A DNA stretch of 64,000 nucleotides from Sulfurimonas sp. (GTDB taxonomy: Bacteria; Campylobacterota; Campylobacteria; Campylobacterales; Sulfurimonadaceae), in assembly GCF_026196735.1 (NCBI RefSeq), contig NZ_JAPHUF010000012.1, forward strand, positions 434,001-498,000, given 5' to 3'. A program made the translations under genes and the position numbers. The notes beneath the pieces were generated by a model. It saw nothing but the letters and a program-made list of their open reading frames with translations, ran no database searches and was not told the DNA's origin. Shown piece after piece: positions 49,439 through 62,145 of the stretch (position 1 is its first letter; the number at the start of each line of letters is the position of its first letter).

Positions 49439-50773
49439 ATGAAATTTCCAACAATAGGTGAAATAGCAACAACATCAGTAGTATCAATAGATGTTAAAAG
49501 CTCAATCACAGATGCAATAGATATGATGCTTGAACATAACCACAGAAATATAATAGTTATAGATGAGGGTGAATTTCGTATTTTAACAATTGTTGATGTC
49601 TTAAATATTCAAACTAAAAAGATAGACTTAAGCACTCAACTAAAAGATTTAAAACTGCCTGCAGTTCCCGCAATATACAAGCATAAAAATGTTTTAGATA
49701 CTTTGGAATACTTAAGTGATAATGTAGATTATTTATGTGTTATTAATGATGATGACTCACTTTACGGATTTATTACTCATACTGATATTACCAGCAATAT
49801 TGACCCTGATACTTTGATGAATAATTTTCGTCTCCAAGATTTTTTAAAACTCGGTAAAAGGATGAAGTGGGTAAGTAAAGATGAAAAGACATCTGACTTG
49901 ATAAATGAAATGGTTCATAACTCATATGACAATGTTATAATTGTTGAAGATTCAAAGCCTGTAGGTATTTTTACTACAAAAGATGTAATGAAGCTAATCA
50001 AAAATAATAAAGAGTTAGACTTGCCCATCAGCAAATACATGTCAACACCTGTAGATACCATAACCAGAGGTGCCTCTGTAAAGGAAGCCTTATCTTTTGT
50101 AAATGAAAAACATTACAAAAGGGCTGTTGTTGTAGATGAAGATGGCAATTTGTCTGGGATAATCGCACAAAAAGAACTTATCTCTTTAACCTATTCAGGG
50201 TGGGCAGAAATCATGAAAGAGTACCATGAGGAACTTAATGAAATCAATGCAAAGCTTGAGAATAAAAACAAAGAATACGAGACTAGAGCTTCTACGGACG
50301 CTCTAACAGGGCTATATAACAGATTTAAGTTTTCAGAACTTTATAATTCATCTTACACATCTATGGTTCAAAGACATAATGACATGTCATTGATTATATT
50401 GGATATAGACCACTTTAAAAATGTTAATGACACATATGGACATAATGTCGGAGATAATGTACTTATACAAGTTTCGCAAACACTATTAAAAACTTTAAGA
50501 AATATAGATATAGTGTGTAGATGGGGAGGTGAGGAGTTTATTATACTGCTTCCAACCGCAAACTTAGGCCAAGCAACTCTATTGGCAGAGAAATTGAGAA
50601 CTTACATAGAAAAATTAGAAATAGATGTGGTTAAAAAGATAACTTCTAGTTTTGGAGTCTCACAAGTATATGAGGGCGATGATATGAAAACAGTCATCAA
50701 TAGAGCAGACAAAGCACTCTATTTAGCTAAGAATTCAGGGAGAAATTGCGTTAAAACCGAGAAAGATTTGTAA
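49439..50773 (+). CDS. CBS-domain GGDEF diguanylate cyclase
   Basis: A 444-residue soluble protein. Two CBS pairs fill residues about 1-255 and would bind adenine nucleotides. A short linker coiled coil (about 258-282) leads to a GGDEF domain with GGEEF at 363-367. Its RxxD inhibitory site is RNID at 354-357. It should synthesise c-di-GMP in response to ATP/AMP or S-adenosyl ligands; the ligand is an inference from the CBS class. It lies 11 bases after folP and is possibly co-transcribed. A hairpin closes the region before dnaK. Confidence 0.88.
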   Translation: MKFPTIGEIATTSVVSIDVKSSITDAIDMMLEHNHRNIIVIDEGEFRILTIVDVLNIQTKKIDLSTQLKDLKLPAVPAIYKHKNVLDTLEYLSDNVDYLCVINDDDSLYGFITHTDITSNIDPDTLMNNFRLQDFLKLGKRMKWVSKDEKTSDLINEMVHNSYDNVIIVEDSKPVGIFTTKDVMKLIKNNKELDLPISKYMSTPVDTITRGASVKEALSFVNEKHYKRAVVVDEDGNLSGIIAQKELISLTYSGWAEIMKEYHEELNEINAKLENKNKEYETRASTDALTGLYNRFKFSELYNSSYTSMVQRHNDMSLIILDIDHFKNVNDTYGHNVGDNVLIQVSQTLLKTLRNIDIVCRWGGEEFIILLPTANLGQATLLAEKLRTYIEKLEIDVVKKITSSFGVSQVYEGDDMKTVINRADKALYLAKNSGRNCVKTEKDL

Positions 50774-53501: not shown

Positions 53502-55511
53502 ATGAAGTATTTAGCTTGGTTTAGCGGTGTTTTAGTTACTTTAGTTGCTGTTGTATATGTAGTTATATTTACATCTTTGGGCAATGGATTGCTTAAGCCT
53601 ATTGTAGAAGACAAGATACAACAACAGACAAAACTAGATAGCAAACTTACAACATTTACTCTTAATATGAGTTCTTTTGAGGTACTTCTAGAGCTAAATG
53701 CAAACAATAGTGTTTTAATAAAGGGGAATTACTCTCTGTTTTCACAAGCCTTTGATGTAGCATATAGAGTTAGGCTTGATAATTTAGAGAGTTTAAAAGA
53801 GCTTAGCGATTTACCGCTTCAAGGAAAACTTTATACAGATGGAAAAGTTAAAGGTGACATGTCGTTTATGGAAGTTGACGGCAAAAGTGATGTAGGAGAG
53901 GGTGATACAACTTATCATGTTGAGCTGACTGACTTAAATCCTACTTCTATAATTGCTGAGGTAAAAAATGCAAAATTGTCATCTCTTTTGTATTTGGGAG
54001 CTCAAAGTCAATACGCGAGTGCAGATATAAATCTAGATGTAAACTTTAAAAACATTAATCCGGGTAAACTCGATGGAGATATACTACTAATAACTAAAAA
54101 TGCTAAAATTGATTCACAATTAATGAAAAAAGATTTTAATGTAACTATCCCAAATACATCTTTTGCTATGAAACTCGATGCTAAATTAAAAGGTAATGAT
54201 GTAGACTATAGCTATGATTTAAGCTCAAAGCTCTTTAGTATACTATCATCCGGAAATGTAAAACCTGAACCTCTTCAAACAGATATAACATACTCTTTAA
54301 ACATAAAAGAGCTTGCTCTGCTGAAACCTGTCATAGGTGCAGACCTCAGAGGAGCATTTAAGCTTAATGGAACAGTTAAAGGGAGCAAGGAAAAACTTAT
54401 AGTAAAGGGCAAAAGTGATTTGGCTGAATCAGATACAAAATTTGAAGCCGTGTTAAAAGATTTTGCTCCAAAGAGCATTGTAGCTAGTGTTAAAAATCTA
54501 AAATTAAAAAAACTACTATATATGATAAAACAGCCACATTATACAGATGGAATTTTATTTTTAAATGCTGACATAACCAATGCAGCCGTTGGAAGTTTAA
54601 AAGGAAAAGTACAAACAGATATAAAAAACGGTTTATTGAATTCTAAATATATAACAAAATTGGCTGGGTTTGAATCTTTGATGCCACGAACAACTTTTAA
54701 TTCTACAACAACAACTATCTTAAATAAAAATCTATTGGATACAAAAGTAGATTTTAATTCAAACCTTGTAGATTTAGATATTAAAAAAGCTAGCTATAAC
54801 CTAAAAGACAGCTCACTTAAAAGTGATTATTTGGCTACAGTTGCAAATCTTGACAAGCTTTTTTTCGTTACTCAGCGGCGCATGAAAGGTGACTTGAGTG
54901 TTAATGGCGAACTTGTAAAAATAAAAGATTTGGATTTAACAATCCACACTAAAATTGCCGGAGGCAATGTTGATGCTAAGCTTCATAATGATGATTTTCA
55001 TGCTGAGTTTAAATCAGTTAGCACCAAAGAGCTGCTAGGCATGTTTATTTATCCTGAGATTTTTCAAGCAAACCTTGATGGCAAGTTAAATTATAATTTA
55101 GCACAGAGCAAGGGTGTATTTAGCGGGCATGTTATTGATGGAAATTTTGTTAATAACAATACATTTAATCTTATAAAACAGTATACGAAATTTGACATGT
55201 ACAGAGAAAGTTTTAATGGAGATATTGCTGCAGAAATAAATAAAGAAAAAATTCTTGCTTCACTTGATTTTCGTTCAAAACAAGCTTCTGTAAAAACAAC
55301 AAATGCAAAAATAAATACAAAAACTAAAATGATAGATTCTGATGTAACAATTCAAGCAAAGAAAAACACTGTAACGGCAAATATAATTGGAGACATAAAT
55401 GCTCCAAAAGTTAAAGTAGATTTGGAAAAATTGATGAAGTCAAAAGCCGGAGATGCCTTGAAAAAAGAGATAAACAAGGGGATAGACAAACTATTTAAAA
55501 AGTTTTTTTAG
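53502..55511 (+). CDS. AsmA-like membrane protein with three internal repeats
   Basis: A 669-residue protein with one N-terminal TM helix (about 5-24) and a long beta-rich periplasmic part, as in AsmA/TamB-like proteins. Three similar blocks begin near residues 105 (LPLQGKLYTDGKVKG), 281 (DLRGAFKLNGTVKG) and 459 (RRMKGDLSVNGELVK). Each continues through a GKSD/D-rich turn to an SI-A-VKN-KL-LLY pattern. The period is about 177 residues. AsmA superfamily proteins form grooves that move phospholipids between membranes. No close named homologue is recognised. It is convergent with the Cache-GGDEF-EAL gene. Confidence 0.7.
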   Translation: MKYLAWFSGVLVTLVAVVYVVIFTSLGNGLLKPIVEDKIQQQTKLDSKLTTFTLNMSSFEVLLELNANNSVLIKGNYSLFSQAFDVAYRVRLDNLESLKELSDLPLQGKLYTDGKVKGDMSFMEVDGKSDVGEGDTTYHVELTDLNPTSIIAEVKNAKLSSLLYLGAQSQYASADINLDVNFKNINPGKLDGDILLITKNAKIDSQLMKKDFNVTIPNTSFAMKLDAKLKGNDVDYSYDLSSKLFSILSSGNVKPEPLQTDITYSLNIKELALLKPVIGADLRGAFKLNGTVKGSKEKLIVKGKSDLAESDTKFEAVLKDFAPKSIVASVKNLKLKKLLYMIKQPHYTDGILFLNADITNAAVGSLKGKVQTDIKNGLLNSKYITKLAGFESLMPRTTFNSTTTTILNKNLLDTKVDFNSNLVDLDIKKASYNLKDSSLKSDYLATVANLDKLFFVTQRRMKGDLSVNGELVKIKDLDLTIHTKIAGGNVDAKLHNDDFHAEFKSVSTKELLGMFIYPEIFQANLDGKLNYNLAQSKGVFSGHVIDGNFVNNNTFNLIKQYTKFDMYRESFNGDIAAEINKEKILASLDFRSKQASVKTTNAKINTKTKMIDSDVTIQAKKNTVTANIIGDINAPKVKVDLEKLMKSKAGDALKKEINKGIDKLFKKFF

Positions 55512-55515
55512 CTCG

Positions 55516-57420
55516 CTAAAATAGTTCATGAACCTCAAGCAGAGTAGATTTTGGCTCAGCAATGTAATAACCTTGCAGATAATCTATGTCTAGTTCTAGT
55601 AACTTATCAAAAACTTCTTTTGAGTGAACAAACTCTGCAATAGTTTGCATATTGGCTTGATGTGCGAAATGTATAATGCTTTTTACGACTTTAAAGTCTT
55701 TGTCGTTAGTATCGATGTTTTTTATCAGTGAACCATCGATTTTAAGATAGTTTGCTTCAATATCTATAATAGTTTTAAAGTTAGAGTACCCACTTCCAAA
55801 ATCATCAATTGAAACTTTTGCTTTAAGTGAATGCAGCAGCTTTATTTTCTCTTTAAATAGTTTAATGTTGTCTATTTCATCACTCTCTAGTATTTCAAAA
55901 GTAACACGAGACGCAAGATGAGGGTTGCTGCCTAAATGTGAAATAATAGTGTTTTCAATATCAGGGTTTATAAGGTCGGAGAAATTTATATTAATACTTA
56001 CATGTTTTTCATTATGTTTAAATTTTTCAAAGACAAGCAATAAAATTGTTTGTGTTAATTTATAGTATATATTTGTATGTCTTAATTGAGGTAAAAACTG
56101 CAAAGGAGATATAATACTGCCGTCTTTTGCGATAATCCTTACTAAGGCTTCATAATTTTTAATAGTATTGTAGTTGTTACAATATATAGGTTGATAGTAG
56201 CATGTTATACGGTTTTCATTAAGGGCTTGCTTGACAAAACCTATATTTTTAGATGAAGAGGATATGTCGTTTTGTGATTTTTCATCATAGCAAACAATTT
56301 GATTCCTTCCATTCTTTTTTGCAATATAGAGCATTCTATCAGCAATTTTAATGGCTTCTTGCATGTTTTTTTCTAAAGCCGGATGTTTATGCAGACCAAT
56401 AGAAACATTTACTTTTATTTCATTTGTATCGTATACAAATGTTTGTTTAGATAGGTTGTCTTTTAGTCTTTCGCATATGCTAAAGGTAGATGAATCTTTA
56501 TGTCTATTGTTGATTAAGAGTAAAAACTCCTCCCCACCGTATCTTATGAGTATATCACTGTCTCTAATTGATTTTTTAAATACTTTAGCTGCCTGAGCTA
56601 GTATATAGTCACCTGCTTTATGTCCATAAGTGTCATTTATAACTTTGAATTTGTCTAAGTCAAGCATCGCTATACTATAATGACTTAGATTAAGCATAGA
56701 TGATATCTCTTCTAAATAGTTTCTGTTAAATGTTCGTGTAAGCGGGTCTGTAAATATTTTTTTTCTTGTTACAAAGTAGTGAAAAAGTTGCATTACTGTC
56801 ATAATCATTAATAATATTAAAGAAATTATCAAAACCATAAAGAATGTCTCAAGAGGCTTAATAGATTCTAGTATGATTTCTTGAATATTAGTTGTTATAT
56901 CAATACTAAAGAGGCCAACAACAGTGTCATTGGCGATTATAGGATATAGATATGTCAAATATAAATTTTCCATATCATGTTGTTTTATGACTTGAGGTTT
57001 TTTTATTCTATAAATAGTACGATACTCAGAATTGGTAACATCAAGTTTTTGGTAAAAGTTAGCTTTATCGGTTTTTGAAGCATCTAGCAAAAATCTAAAT
57101 CTATCTCTTTCATCTTTGTACAAAATATATGCATATTTAACATTTGAAGTCAGCATTAAAGAGATTATATGTTCGTAATCTTCTCTTGTACTCTTATTTT
57201 CAAATAGATATAACAGGTCTTTGGAATTTTTTATCTCAGAGTAATCAAGTATATCTTTTTCTATATTTTCTAGTACATGTGATATCTGTTCAACTTGATG
57301 TTTTTCAATACGATTGAAAATGTCTTCTTTGGCTTCTTTTATATTATCATAAACATAGATAAAAAATATACCAAGCAAAAACAGAAGCAAAAATAAGAAA
57401 AGCTCCTTTTTCTTTACCAT
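55516..57420 (-). CDS. Membrane Cache-GGDEF-EAL c-di-GMP enzyme
   Basis: A 634-residue protein. TM1 lies at about 6-24, a periplasmic Cache/PDC-like sensor at about 25-190, and TM2 at about 193-215. GGDEF (about 222-380) has GGEEF at 295-299 and an RxxD site (RDSD, 286-289). EAL (about 395-634) has EAL at 424-426 plus SININFSDL, SIDDFGSGYSNF, YLKIDGSLI and TIAEFV. Both activities look intact. It is the last gene of the set receptor-periplasmic protein-enzyme and overlaps the middle gene by seven bases. Its periplasmic domain is the natural docking site for the middle protein. Confidence 0.88.
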   Translation of the reverse strand: MVKKKELFLFLLLFLLGIFFIYVYDNIKEAKEDIFNRIEKHQVEQISHVLENIEKDILDYSEIKNSKDLLYLFENKSTREDYEHIISLMLTSNVKYAYILYKDERDRFRFLLDASKTDKANFYQKLDVTNSEYRTIYRIKKPQVIKQHDMENLYLTYLYPIIANDTVVGLFSIDITTNIQEIILESIKPLETFFMVLIISLILLMIMTVMQLFHYFVTRKKIFTDPLTRTFNRNYLEEISSMLNLSHYSIAMLDLDKFKVINDTYGHKAGDYILAQAAKVFKKSIRDSDILIRYGGEEFLLLINNRHKDSSTFSICERLKDNLSKQTFVYDTNEIKVNVSIGLHKHPALEKNMQEAIKIADRMLYIAKKNGRNQIVCYDEKSQNDISSSSKNIGFVKQALNENRITCYYQPIYCNNYNTIKNYEALVRIIAKDGSIISPLQFLPQLRHTNIYYKLTQTILLLVFEKFKHNEKHVSININFSDLINPDIENTIISHLGSNPHLASRVTFEILESDEIDNIKLFKEKIKLLHSLKAKVSIDDFGSGYSNFKTIIDIEANYLKIDGSLIKNIDTNDKDFKVVKSIIHFAHQANMQTIAEFVHSKEVFDKLLELDIDYLQGYYIAEPKSTLLEVHELF

Positions 57421-57842
57421 ACTCTTTCCTCTAGGTATGGCTCAAGATCTTTAGAGATTTTAATTAACTGTGATTTTATCCTCGGCTCTATAAGTACAAT
57501 ATTTGGTCTTCCTTTTTTCCAAAATAGCGCACCAAAACTTTGAGGAACATGGCTTAGAGAGTTATAGTTTAATACAAATATATGTTTTGAGCTACACTCT
57601 TTTTCAAGTTTTCTTTTATCTTGTAATATTATTACCGTTGCATCTTCACAGATATTTGTCGTTAAAAGGACATTGTGTTTTTTAAGCTCAGCTAAAAGAT
57701 TTTTATTGTCGCTCCATACCACTATATTTTTATCTAGATGAATATTTGTAATAATGGTTTCTAAAATCTTTACCTGCAGATGATTTGTTTCAGATGCAAG
57801 CAGTACAAGACTTGAAAATAACAGAGTTATTATTGCTTTCAT
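57414..57842 (-). CDS. Secreted small periplasmic protein, YfiR-like by context
   Basis: A 142-residue precursor with signal peptide 1-16 (MKAIITLLFSSLVLLA). The mature part alternates strands and helices with Cys at 63 and 82 (ICED, KECSSK), and ends FGALFWKKGRPNIVLIEPRI and ISKDLEPYLEERVW. The late segment, with a strand then N/IVLIEPRIK and a terminal helix, resembles the layout of YfiR (DUF4154), the periplasmic inhibitor of the diguanylate cyclase YfiN. Sequence identity is not evident to me, so the name is by analogy. ATG abuts the receptor stop and the 3' end overlaps the enzyme gene by seven bases. Confidence 0.55.
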   Translation of the reverse strand: MKAIITLLFSSLVLLASETNHLQVKILETIITNIHLDKNIVVWSDNKNLLAELKKHNVLLTTNICEDATVIILQDKRKLEKECSSKHIFVLNYNSLSHVPQSFGALFWKKGRPNIVLIEPRIKSQLIKISKDLEPYLEERVW

Positions 57843-59720
57843 TTAAAAAGTGTACTCCATTGTAAGAATAACTCTTCTGTCTGTTGCTGATACCTTAATA
57901 TCTCCCATAGGAGTCTCTGACGCTCTGTCAAAAATATTTTCTGCTTTTAGTTTTAGTTCTATTTTCTTGTTCAACTTGTATATTGCTCCAAGCGAGTAGT
58001 CAAATCCTTCTTTAATATCCACACCTTCTAGACTTGTGTATTTTGAATGATAAAGCAGTTCGTTGTAAATATCAAATTTTCCAATGGTGTTGAAAAGCTG
58101 GATAGAACCACCTTGCTTTGGGCTATAGTAATTATCTCTAAATTGTCTGTAAATCTCCATTTTTATTTTATTGTCTATGTTGAGCTTGTGCTCCATATTT
58201 GCAAAAATAAATTTAAAACTCTTCTCTTGAGCACTGTTTACATAGATACTCTCAGATGGATCTGTTGCATTCATATCAAAAATAATTGCGTTGTCTGTCG
58301 TATTTTTGCCAAATCCAAATCCAAAAACGCTATCTTTGAGTTTATAGATAATTTCCGCAGTTGTTGTAAGCGACTCTGCACTTTGTAAATCAGGGTTAAT
58401 GTTGTAGTTTGGTGAAAAAGTTGTTTGCAAAAATGTCGGATACATATAACTCTGCATAGCAAAAAGTTTAAAGGTCCATTTTTCATCAAGAAGTGCTACA
58501 TAACCGGCTCTAAGTATATGTTCTGTTGAGGACTTGTTGAAGCTATTTTTATAAAAGTCTATTTTTGCGCTAAGAGATATCAGGTGATTCTCATTTATAT
58601 TGTATAGGTTCTCTGCAAAAAACATGTATATATCTAAATCTTTTGGACCCCAGTTCCTTGCATAATCAACACCGTCTACTTTGTATTCGTCGATACCGAA
58701 TTTTTGATGTTTAAATTGCGCTCCCAAAAATAGCTCATTATTTGCGTTTATAAACCTTTTTTCTATGATTGCGCTATAAACTTGAGTAGATATTTCAGTG
58801 TTAAGCTGTTTTGGAAAAGGAGCTGTTGTTCCCGGCAGCGGTATGCCTATGTCATCCTTGTCGTAAAGTTCAAATTTTTCATAAGATGAAGTAAGCATTA
58901 TTTTTAGATTATTCTCAAAATATTTGGTAATATGCGTGTATATATCGTTAGTTTGCGTATCTCCATCGACGGTAGCCATGCCTATCCCGCTAAAAATGTC
59001 GTATTTTTCTTTAATTGCGCCTATTTCGATATCATAGTCATCTTTTTTTGAAAATTTAAAATAGAATTGACCTCTTTCACCGTCTCTTGAGAGTTCTGAA
59101 TTGTTTGAGGTATAGTTTTTGTAATAGTTTTTCTTTAAATCAACATTTGTCAAATATGAGTACTCGTCAAAAACTTTTGCATCAACTCCCTGCATTGTTA
59201 CGCTTCCAAATGAATCAACAGAGGCTTGAATGGATGTGCTGTTTTCACGAGATGGGTCTTTAGTGAAAAGTTTTATAAGGAGTGTTCCCGGTTCGTTACC
59301 AAATGTTACTGAATTTCCCGCCTGATAGATTTCTATATAGTCGATAAAATATAGACCCATTCTTCCATATTGCACCAAAACATTACCAAGTGTTGCAGAG
59401 TTTAATTCATGAGAATTTATGTAAAGTTTTGCGGGGTGAGATGACATCTGTGTTTGACCGCTTCTTACAAGTGTAGTCATACCGTTTTTTCTTGGTTGAA
59501 GCGTAAAAAACCTTAAAGTTTTTAAAACATCGTTTAGTGTGTAAGCCTGCATTTTATCGAGTTCTGAGCGTGTTATTACTCTGATGTGCCCAGCACTCTC
59601 TTTTTTTGTGTGATGGTAAAGCTCCTCTGCACTTTTATACTCTTTTAACAGATCATCGAGAGAAAGCTTTTGAGAAAACGCAAGTGTAGACAATAGTAAG
59701 ACAAGAGTAACTATTCTCAT
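57843..59720 (-). CDS. TonB-receptor-like outer-membrane barrel with plug domain
   Basis: The start is ATG 59720, eight bases after AAGG; an in-frame TTG at 59723 precedes it. The 625-residue precursor has a signal peptide 1-16 (LLLSTLAFS), a plug-like domain about 20-160 (IRVITRSELDKM, LNDVLKTLRFF, FIDYIEIYQAGNSVTFGNEP), and then an amphipathic beta barrel ending VILTMEYTF with terminal Phe. A TonB box is not obvious. It is probably the outer-membrane sensor or transporter of the c-di-GMP set. Minus-strand TATAAT ahead of AAGG is a likely -10. Substrate unknown. Confidence 0.75.
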   Translation of the reverse strand: MRIVTLVLLLSTLAFSQKLSLDDLLKEYKSAEELYHHTKKESAGHIRVITRSELDKMQAYTLNDVLKTLRFFTLQPRKNGMTTLVRSGQTQMSSHPAKLYINSHELNSATLGNVLVQYGRMGLYFIDYIEIYQAGNSVTFGNEPGTLLIKLFTKDPSRENSTSIQASVDSFGSVTMQGVDAKVFDEYSYLTNVDLKKNYYKNYTSNNSELSRDGERGQFYFKFSKKDDYDIEIGAIKEKYDIFSGIGMATVDGDTQTNDIYTHITKYFENNLKIMLTSSYEKFELYDKDDIGIPLPGTTAPFPKQLNTEISTQVYSAIIEKRFINANNELFLGAQFKHQKFGIDEYKVDGVDYARNWGPKDLDIYMFFAENLYNINENHLISLSAKIDFYKNSFNKSSTEHILRAGYVALLDEKWTFKLFAMQSYMYPTFLQTTFSPNYNINPDLQSAESLTTTAEIIYKLKDSVFGFGFGKNTTDNAIIFDMNATDPSESIYVNSAQEKSFKFIFANMEHKLNIDNKIKMEIYRQFRDNYYSPKQGGSIQLFNTIGKFDIYNELLYHSKYTSLEGVDIKEGFDYSLGAIYKLNKKIELKLKAENIFDRASETPMGDIKVSATDRRVILTMEYTF

Positions 59721-59775
59721 CAAGCGTACCTTAATTATAATAAATATTTATATCTGTAGTATAATGAATGGCTAC

Positions 59776-60351
59776 TTAGTTTAAACTTGCATCGGCTAAA
59801 GTTATGCAAAATAATGTATTTTTGTTGTTGTTTTGCATTGTTTTAATTGCACTGTTTAATGTTAAGCCTGTCGTAATTATGTCATCAACTAAAATAACTT
59901 CATTCGTATCAATATCTTTGAGTTGAAACTCTCTTGGATTAAGGAGTCTAAATTCTCTGCTTTTTCCCGAATATGATACTCTGTTTTTGGCTCTGAGCTT
60001 ATTAAACTTGGGTATTATACATTTATTTTTAAGTGCTTTGTTTAAAACAGCTGTATGTGAGTAGCCGTTGTGGGCATAATCATCAACTGCAATAGAAGTT
60101 ATGATGTCCGGATAACTAAACTCATCAGCAAAGAATTTTAGAGAATTTTTTGCAAGGATAGAGTAGATGTAGTAGCCAAGGTCTGTGTGTTTTGTATGTA
60201 GAAGAGTTTTAATATCTCTGTACTTGTAAAAAGATATGACCTCAATGTTGTTTAGAATTTTTCGTTTGTAAATTGAGGGAGTTAAAAAAGTTGTTTGACA
60301 TGTAGAGCAGATATGTGTGAGTGAAAAGCTCTCACACATCAAACATTTCAC
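59776..60351 (-). CDS. comF: ComF family phosphoribosyltransferase-like protein
   Basis: A 191-residue protein started by GTG 60351, three bases after the lepA stop. An N-terminal zinc ribbon uses Cys3/Cys6 (CLMC) and Cys15/Cys18 (CSTC). The PRTase domain has the PRPP loop VILVDDIITTGLTL. ComF is needed for late steps of DNA uptake in transformation, where studied. Together with dprA it hints at competence. Length is slightly short for ComF but the domains are complete. Confidence 0.85.
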   Translation of the reverse strand: MKCLMCESFSLTHICSTCQTTFLTPSIYKRKILNNIEVISFYKYRDIKTLLHTKHTDLGYYIYSILAKNSLKFFADEFSYPDIITSIAVDDYAHNGYSHTAVLNKALKNKCIIPKFNKLRAKNRVSYSGKSREFRLLNPREFQLKDIDTNEVILVDDIITTGLTLNSAIKTMQNNNKNTLFCITLADASLN

Positions 60352-60354
60352 TTT

Positions 60355-62145
60355 TTAATCCATCTTTAAAACTGACATAAAGGCTTCTTGCGGAAGCTGT
60401 ACTTTTCCTATGCTTTTCATTCTTTTCTTGCCGGCTTTTTGTTTTTCTAGTAGTTTTCTTTTACGAGTGATATCACCACCGTAACATTTTGCAGTAACAT
60501 TTTTACCCATTGACTTTACAGTCTCTCTTGCAATAACCTGAGAACCTAAAGATGCTTGAACAGCTACTTCAAAAAGTTGACGAGGTATTATCTCTTTCAT
60601 GTTTTTAACCAAAACACGACCACGAGAGAGAGCTTGATTGCGTGGAACAACAATACTTAGTGCATCAACAACTTCTCCGGCAACTTTTACATCAAGCTTA
60701 ACAAGGTCGCCAACTCTAAAATCTATAGGGTCATAATCAAATGAAGCATAACCTTTAGAGATTGATTTTAGTGTATCGTAAAAATCAACCACTATCTCAT
60801 TCATTGGTATTTCATACTCAAGCATAACTCTATCTTCATTAAGATAAGTCATTTTTGTTTGAATTCCACGCTTACTTATCAAAAGAGTTATTATATTACC
60901 AAGGTATTGGCTAGGAGTGATTACAGTAGCTTTAACATAAGGCTCTTCAATCCTGTCAATCTTGTTTACTTCTGGAAGTTCAGAAGGATTTTGAACATTG
61001 ATTTTTTCACCGTTGTTAAGATAAACTTGATAGATAACTGATGGAGCAGAAGCTATCAAATCTAGGTTGAATTCACGCTCTAGTCTCTCTTTTACAACTT
61101 CCATATGAAGCATGCCAAGAAACCCTACACGAAAACCAAAACCAAGAGCTAGAGATGTCTCTGGCTCGTAGGACAAAGAGCTGTCATTTAGTCTCAGTTT
61201 ATCAAGGGCATCACGCAGATTTTCAAATTCATCTGTATCTATTGGGTAAATACCGGCAAAAACAAATGGTTTTGCCGGCTCATAAGTTCCAACCGGCTCC
61301 GTCGCAGGATTTTTAGCATCCGTAATAGTATCACCGACATTTATAACCGCAACTTCTTTTAGTCCAAGAACAACAATCCCAATCTCGCCACACTCTATAG
61401 TTTGAGTTTTGATTTTTTTCATAGGGTGTGGATACATCAAGTCAAGTATATGATGCTCTTGACCATTACTCATAAGCTTGATATTTTGCCCTTTTTTAAC
61501 CTGACCGTCAAATACACGAACAAGTGCAAGCGCACCTAAATATTGGTCAAACCAAGAGTCATAAATAATTGCTTTTGTTGTAGCTTCAGGGTCGCCAACA
61601 GGAGCAGGCACCCTGTCAACAATTGCGTCAATAAGCTCGCGTATGCCAACACCTGTTTTTGCAGAAACTAAACAGGCATCTGTCGCGTCAATCCCGATAC
61701 TTGTCTCTATCTCTTCTGCAACTTTCATTGGATCAGCAGCAGGGAGGTCGATTTTGTTTATAACAGGAATAAGTTCCAAGTCATTATCTAACGCTAGATA
61801 AACATTTGCAATTGTTTGAGCTTCAACACCTTGAGCAGCATCTACAATAAGTAGTGCGCCATCACTAGAAGCTAGTGACTTGCTAACTTCGTATGAAAAA
61901 TCAACATGGCCCGGAGTATCTATAAGATTTAAAATATAGTGTTGGCCGTCTTTTACATAATCAAGTCTAACACTTTGAGCTTTGATAGTGATACCGCGTT
62001 CTTGTTCGATATCCATAGTATCCATCATCTGGGTACCCAACTCTCTCTCAGTTACAGAGCCACACTCTTGGATAATTCTATCTGCTAGGGTACTTTTACC
62101 ATGGTCAATGTGTGCAATGATAGAAAAGTTTCTGATATTTTTCAA
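60355..62145 (-). CDS. lepA: Elongation factor 4 (LepA)
   Basis: A 596-residue translational GTPase. [14 protein letters not shown] is the P-loop, ERGITIKAQ the switch [14 protein letters not shown]3, and [11 protein letters not shown]4. The C-terminal LepA-specific part includes [20 protein letters not shown]. It back-translocates or remodels ribosomes. Lies 14 bases after prs and just before comF on the same strand. Confidence 0.98.

Follow-up and report, generated by a model that had tools for sequence, protein, structure and literature searches.

A TonB-type receptor, a small periplasmic protein of predicted YfiR-like fold and a c-di-GMP enzyme: a conserved gene trio and candidate envelope-spanning relay in Campylobacterota

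To our knowledge, the route by which cues from beyond the outer membrane reach cyclic di-GMP (c-di-GMP) enzymes with periplasmic domains is mostly unknown. The terms TonB, YfiR and ‘outer membrane’ never occur in the main text of a review from 2022 on c-di-GMP inputs (PMC8846402). The closest described system is YfiBNR (also AwsXRO/TpbB) in which, according to the relevant passages of two papers, YfiR represses YfiN via the YfiN periplasmic domain, and YfiB in turn sequesters YfiR at the outer membrane (PMC3375315, PMC4887326). One section of Malone et al. (2012, PMC3375315) describes a modular YfiR–YfiN core whose output can be GGDEF-EAL or a kinase, and reports that distant lineages mostly lack YfiB; no receptor is named in that section. 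Here, we describe a locus in a 64,000-nucleotide stretch (the window) of the 2.19 Mb genome of a Sulfurimonas sp. (contig NZ_JAPHUF010000012.1, positions 434,001 to 498,000), in which genes for a TonB-type receptor, a small secreted protein and a membrane GGDEF-EAL enzyme lie side by side and may encode a relay of comparable design.

The three genes are minus-strand open reading frames (ORFs) with the following features, in window coordinates:

57843..59720, minus strand: TonB-dependent-receptor-like outer-membrane protein, with a signal peptide (recognised by eye), a plug and a C-terminal Phe
59589..59651, minus strand: conserved segment near the receptor N-terminus that precedes and extends into the plug, where a TonB box would be expected
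59295..59606, minus strand: Plug domain PF07715 (Pfam)
57414..57842, minus strand: secreted periplasmic protein of 142 amino acids with a YfiR-like predicted fold, without Pfam or NCBIfam family
57594..57650, minus strand: small-protein stretch from Cys65 to Cys83
57498..57533, minus strand: most conserved small-protein motif, residues G104-I115
55516..57420, minus strand: inner-membrane sensor enzyme of 634 amino acids, GGDEF plus EAL
56851..57342, minus strand: periplasmic sensor domain, probably a single Cache/PDC domain
56299..56754, minus strand: GGDEF domain (GGEEF, RxxD; Pfam and motifs)
55552..56232, minus strand: EAL domain with catalytic motifs (Pfam and motifs)

The genes are as tightly coupled as an earlier note on this DNA had claimed. 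The small-protein ATG at 57842 abuts the receptor stop ending at 57843 (gap 0), and the small-protein ORF (57842-57414) and enzyme ORF (57420-55516) overlap by seven bases. The receptor start that the note gave, 59720, agrees with the ATG found there; the earliest in-frame start is a TTG at 59723, for which that ATG is the next codon, and the ORF may alternatively begin at this TTG.

In common with YfiBNR, the locus groups genes for an outer-membrane part, a small protein of the periplasm that is predicted to fold similarly, and a c-di-GMP enzyme of the inner membrane that carries a periplasmic sensor domain. The two differ in that the outer component is a TonB-type barrel here and an OmpA/Pal-like lipoprotein in YfiBNR, the enzyme is Cache-like with no HAMP or CHASE8 match instead of PAS-HAMP, the output is GGDEF-EAL or (in relatives) a kinase instead of GGDEF, and the small protein shows no sequence homology to DUF4154, the family of YfiR. 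The ORFs that flank the trio (53502-55511 and 59776-60351) gave no OmpA match, and the place of YfiB is held by the TonB-type receptor. FecA–FecR–FecI, a form of cell-surface signalling with a sigma/anti-sigma pair, likewise uses a TonB-type receptor to signal across the envelope; in the present locus, that pair is replaced by a soluble protein of the periplasm together with a kinase or second-messenger enzyme. Part of one source places signalling of the FecA–FecR–FecI type in Campylobacterota (PMC9239204).

Evidence that the trio is a conserved unit comes from a survey of 298 genomes of the order, drawn from 81 genera. The survey located the small protein at 125 places, spread over 102 genomes and 26 genera, and the N-terminal sensor part of the enzyme at 119 places in 103 genomes (24 genera). 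The sensor lies immediately downstream at 113 of the 125 small-protein places, and the small protein immediately upstream at 113 of the 119 sensor places. Both are present in 99 genomes, the small protein only in three, the sensor only in four and neither in 192. Joint conservation had been set beforehand as one of the points on which the earlier proposal could fail, and the proposal passes on it; the co-occurrence found exceeds chance, a judgement for which no use was made of a Fisher test that takes no account of relatedness among the genomes.

Closer inspection covered 87 loci: 80 of the 125 places, six Sulfurimonas loci from metagenome-assembled genomes and the window. All but one of these gave a small-protein member, the odd one (L106) being left out because its open frame, at 44 amino acids, is under the 60-residue limit. 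A homologous receptor is found directly upstream of the small protein in 85 of the 86 members and a homologous sensor enzyme directly downstream in 79, with a further sensor enzyme (L088) seen by eye. Receptor and small-protein genes overlap by 1 to 28 bases in 70 of 85 cases, the common offsets being overlaps of 4, 13, 28 or 1 bases, or none; overlaps of 4, 7 and 1 bases are common between the small-protein and enzyme genes.

What varies is the output. Of 79 enzymes, 53 are GGDEF-EAL, 17 GGDEF and six kinases, with three undecided; Pfam searches of 80 enzymes (L112 added) matched GGDEF in 72, EAL in 53, and HisKA and HATPase_c in seven each. On a quick tree of the small protein plus sensor, the output type changes nine times, the kinase type arising through a single change, which indicates that receptor, small protein and sensor form the constant unit to which exchangeable outputs are attached. 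In the window enzyme itself, both catalytic sites look complete, in line with the earlier note: GGDEF and EAL score 120.8 and 191.4 bits, respectively, and the motifs RDSD (residue 286), GGEEF (295), EAL (424), DDFG (539) and KIDG (560) are all present.

The sensor domain of the enzyme is flanked by hydrophobic helices, as judged by eye and from a model, and is likely to be a Cache/PDC domain, although the matches on which this rests are weak. The Cache domain of the earlier note was recovered at family level only: MCP-like_PDC_1 was matched at E ≤ 0.1 in 11 and dCache_1 in three of the 80 family enzymes, and weakly in nine and six, respectively, of 40 isolated sensor domains (the window plus 39 of the 77 others, alignment A7), whereas the window enzyme gave no Cache match at E ≤ 1, nor did its isolated sensor domain give one. 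When the sensor profile was compared with the Protein Data Bank (PDB), four of the best five matches were chemoreceptor or kinase sensor domains (E 0.02-0.6). The predicted model has a long helix followed by a β-β-α-β-β-β arrangement, and residues D103, R109, D113, P160 and D174 are almost invariant. A model of the whole enzyme (mean predicted local distance difference test score, pLDDT, 66) was also submitted to VIA-align; its result was taken up by GGDEF structures and is uninformative on the periplasmic domain. Neither CHASE8 nor HAMP was matched in the window enzyme at E ≤ 1, and neither is among the 25 of 68 Pfam families listed for the 80 enzymes.

The small protein belongs to no curated Pfam or NCBIfam family above cut-off, sequence searches of the PDB returned nothing at a meaningful E-value, and no plasmid match was found at E ≤ 0.1. 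A family alignment (A1, 85 members; the 83-residue L100 was left out) likewise gave nothing useful against E. coli YfiR alone. Within its most conserved motif, G104, W108, K110, R112 and P113 are each kept in at least 81 of the 85 proteins. Allowing for small shifts, Cys65 and Cys83 are both present in 54 members and both absent in 25, with one of the two in only six; this joint behaviour in 79 of 85 sequences makes a disulfide likely. YfiR also has disulfides, according to part of the YfiR structure paper (PMC4655355). A structure model of the small protein, built from seven sequences, reached a pLDDT of 79 and a predicted template modelling score of 0.73. VIA-align placed YfiR at the top of its neighbours (4yna; Z 9.4, 3.2 Å, 118 residues) and in eight of the best nine rows. 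Near the top were also 3lft (Z 8.6) and 3lkv (Z 8.2), both named as structural neighbours of YfiR in the YfiR paper, as far as the portion consulted goes (PMC4655355), with 8wgl among the further neighbours. The predicted fold is thus YfiR-like.

Further support comes from loci in which proteins recognisable as members of the YfiR family occupy the same gene slot. Among 200 Campylobacterota genomes, 16 contain DUF4154 at E ≤ 0.01, at 18 places of which 13 are above the cut-off. An alignment (A6) combines 16 of the proteins with E. coli YfiR and omits L147 and L148; a direct Pfam scan matched DUF4154 at E ≤ 0.01 in 16 of its 17 members. At seven of the 18 places, the DUF4154 gene is immediately preceded by a receptor gene and immediately followed by one for a GGDEF or GGDEF-EAL enzyme (L143, L149, L152 and L154 above cut-off; L156, L158 and L159 below it). 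At L147 (2248-3792, plus strand), right after a TonB-type receptor, DUF4154 and GGDEF are fused in one 514-residue protein, which suggests a direct YfiR-to-cyclase link. Elsewhere (L142, L144, L145 and L146) DUF4154 is followed directly by a TonB-type receptor of 764-801 amino acids, at L142 with a GGDEF gene directly upstream of DUF4154, so that the same partners occur in a second gene order. The other loci are less complete: L157 has a receptor upstream only; no receptor was recognised at L150, L151 and L153, where GGDEF lies downstream; at L155 the upstream gene is for a kinase; and L126/L148 combines a histidine kinase and a DUF4154 match in one open frame.

A YfiR query against plasmids matched four records. 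In Pseudoalteromonas (NZ_CP013139), the order is TonB receptor, DUF4154 protein (confirmed by Pfam) and CHASE8-HAMP-GGDEF-EAL enzyme; in Sphingobium (NZ_CP013071, AP027331), it is TonB receptor, YfiR-like protein (identified by tblastn or annotation) and CHASE8-kinase-receiver protein. The fourth record (H3) lists no annotation. On two more Pseudoalteromonas plasmids, the receptor is in two pieces in one and replaced by an IS30 gene in the other; neither record, in the incomplete gene table available, lists a gene at the place of the enzyme. The Pseudoalteromonas and Sphingobium loci share with the trio its gene order and variety of output (GGDEF-EAL; kinase with receiver) and differ in having a recognisable CHASE8 and DUF4154 (scanned in Pseudoalteromonas) and in belonging to other bacterial classes. 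Taken together, these results support YfiR-family proteins occupying the slot between receptor and enzyme in some Campylobacterota, Pseudoalteromonas and Sphingobium loci.

The TonB-receptor-like character of the receptor shows chiefly in its plug. In the window protein, Plug PF07715 is barely above cut-off (24.3 versus 23.9 bits), the barrel family PF00593 is unmatched, and a partial match to a vitamin-B12 receptor model is far under cut-off (37.7 versus 599.7 bits). Across the 78 of 85 family receptors that exceed 550 amino acids (alignment A4), Plug was matched in 71 at E ≤ 0.01 and PF00593 in 14. The N-terminal segment has the family consensus LLxxYxxxxxLSxxTKxExAG, with G45 and M58 invariant, and may be the docking site for the small protein. 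The search for a TonB box that the earlier note had proposed gave no match to a strict pattern in any of the 78 receptors and one to a loose pattern; of three sibling receptors in the same genome, one fits the strict pattern (DSISVTA) and two do not, making the result only suggestive. With that proviso, the lack of a strict TonB box fits a signalling role for the receptor.

Our preferred reading, to which we assign a probability of roughly 0.6, is that the trio would form an outside-in signalling relay across the envelope, resembling YfiBNR with a TonB-type receptor in place of YfiB. A TonB-type barrel in which no classic TonB box is recognisable would sense a ligand at the outer membrane, and occupancy would decide whether the YfiR-fold protein is held by, or released from, the periplasmic face of the receptor, made up of the conserved N-terminal segment and the plug. 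Once free, the small protein would bind the Cache-like domain of the inner-membrane enzyme and so set the balance between diguanylate cyclase and phosphodiesterase. Direct contacts, control by ligand, inhibition over activation and a c-di-GMP outcome are what we infer for this relay; by analogy with YfiBNR, control probably passes from the receptor to the small protein and from there to the sensor domain.

Several observations weigh against this proposal. The link to YfiR is predicted from structure and gene order: the window protein has no DUF4154 match at E ≤ 1, DUF4154 is not among the 25 of 48 Pfam families listed for the 85 family members, and its model, PF13689, is unmatched anywhere in the source genome at E ≤ 1. 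Foldseek alone places YfiR 30th (E 0.36) and returns nothing at E ≤ 0.001. Homology to YfiR by sequence was considered and rejected. The initial profile–profile match (probability 90.8, E 1.2e-6) fell to 4.9 once signal peptides were removed, with controls from 200 column-shuffled profiles reaching 8.7; these comparisons used 81 of the 85 A1 rows, without four that were over-long, and 18 rows of the YfiR family, with L126 omitted and L125 trimmed to 200 residues. Since the initial match was due to signal peptides, the homology argument is withdrawn and the fold and gene slot remain. The analogy drawn in the earlier note with YfiB–YfiR–YfiN stands for predicted fold and shared slot but not for sequence homology. 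In addition, the strict TonB-box pattern would overlook divergent boxes.

The same holds for some of the incomplete loci. At L112, the small protein is followed by a kinase with an unlike sensor part; at L069, L071, L072 and L099, receptor–small protein pairs are followed by a HAD-like hydrolase (names by eye); the L104 small protein is an orphan adjoining flagellar-motor-like genes (by eye); L172 has a receptor with no sensor found; and no small protein was found for the sensors at L168 and L170. The hydrolase-followed pairs sit in genomes G139, G093 (two) and G040, which have complete trios elsewhere (L092, L096 and L080), whose enzymes the pairs may feed. Among the 12 small proteins that lack a sensor match, three have a sensor by profile (L115, and L173 and L175 at contig ends), one has the order sensor enzyme, receptor, small protein (L167, 3538-7971), and another (L174) has no sensor within the 341 bases remaining on its contig. 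Two of the six sensors that lack a small-protein match (L166 and L171) have one by profile, another belongs to the reordered locus L167, and that at L169 lies at a contig end in the genome in which the small protein of L175 ends another contig. Long open frames starting with receiver-like sequence (by eye) were seen at L166, L168, L171 and L178, and are possibly cognate response regulators.

The main rival, which we consider unlikely though well ahead of the others, holds that the receptor imports a ligand that the small protein captures and presents to the Cache-like domain, making the receptor a feeder and not a switch. LuxP, which presents its ligand to LuxQ, is a precedent. The small protein resembles half of a periplasmic binding protein, its fold neighbours after YfiR include the binding proteins 3lft, 3lkv and 8wgl, and the source genome has two TonB_C matches above cut-off. 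Such a feeder would, however, have to work without a strict TonB box in any of the 78 receptors (a point softened by the two siblings that also fail the pattern), and the top small-protein motif aligns by eye with the region of YfiR that part of the YfiR literature describes as binding YfiN and YfiB. Nor does the neighbour list (lengths, strands and four domain searches) contain a constant fourth gene.

The genes might otherwise be no more than co-transcribed, an uptake receptor and a c-di-GMP enzyme being jointly regulated in one operon without a protein relay. This appears improbable given the near-constant adjacency of small protein and sensor across the 26 and 24 genera in which they occur, the exchange of output domains between trios and the joining of YfiR-family domains to GGDEF (fused, L147) and to a kinase (in frame, L126). 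More improbable still is an inside-out relay, in which cytoplasmic c-di-GMP would set the state of the sensor and so gate the receptor through the small protein. LapD–LapG follows inside-out c-di-GMP logic, with LapD a degenerate receptor. A GGDEF domain with RxxD plus an EAL domain, motifs that are observed here, could on general knowledge bind c-di-GMP. Unlike LapD, however, 70 of the 80 enzymes keep GGEEF or GGDEF intact; seven of the other ten are kinases, and the three non-kinases without the motif include L079, of just 112 amino acids. Kinase or GGDEF-alone outputs are also hard to fit to such a scheme.

The receptor gene is preceded on its strand by a gene with a phosphoribosyltransferase domain (59776-60351) and, further upstream, by a LepA-like gene (60355-62145; named by eye); downstream of the enzyme is a convergent ORF of 669 amino acids with no Pfam match. 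Promoter-like matches number 33, compared with 23.6 (standard deviation 4.6) in shuffles, and terminator-like matches three, compared with 1.7 (standard deviation 1.5); neither count was used as evidence. Elsewhere, the window encodes a GGDEF protein that also has CBS domains (49439-50773, plus strand; CBS matched in four stretches), adjoining dnaK- and grpE-like genes (gene names by eye).

In the open-access literature, from which subscription papers are mostly absent, we found no paper linking a TonB-type receptor to YfiR or describing this trio family, nor any description of the Pseudoalteromonas and Sphingobium loci; the portions available of the PA2072, HmrABCX and Pseudoalteromonas wrinkled-variant papers, considered as precedents, contain no such trio. 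A wider generalisation, which we offer tentatively and at somewhat less than even odds, is that TonB-type receptors that have lost their transport role are a widespread, undescribed class of surface sensors that act through a diffusible YfiR-fold protein on exchangeable inner-membrane outputs, either histidine kinases or c-di-GMP enzymes. On this view, YfiBNR would be a special case in which the receptor has been replaced by a Pal-like lipoprotein, and the Campylobacterota family the most diverged branch. If the proposed relay is correct, it would provide a concrete path by which an external ligand acts on c-di-GMP in one group of Campylobacterota, would suggest a reason why YfiR-family proteins often adjoin TonB-type receptors in these bacteria and would make the origin of YfiBNR testable.

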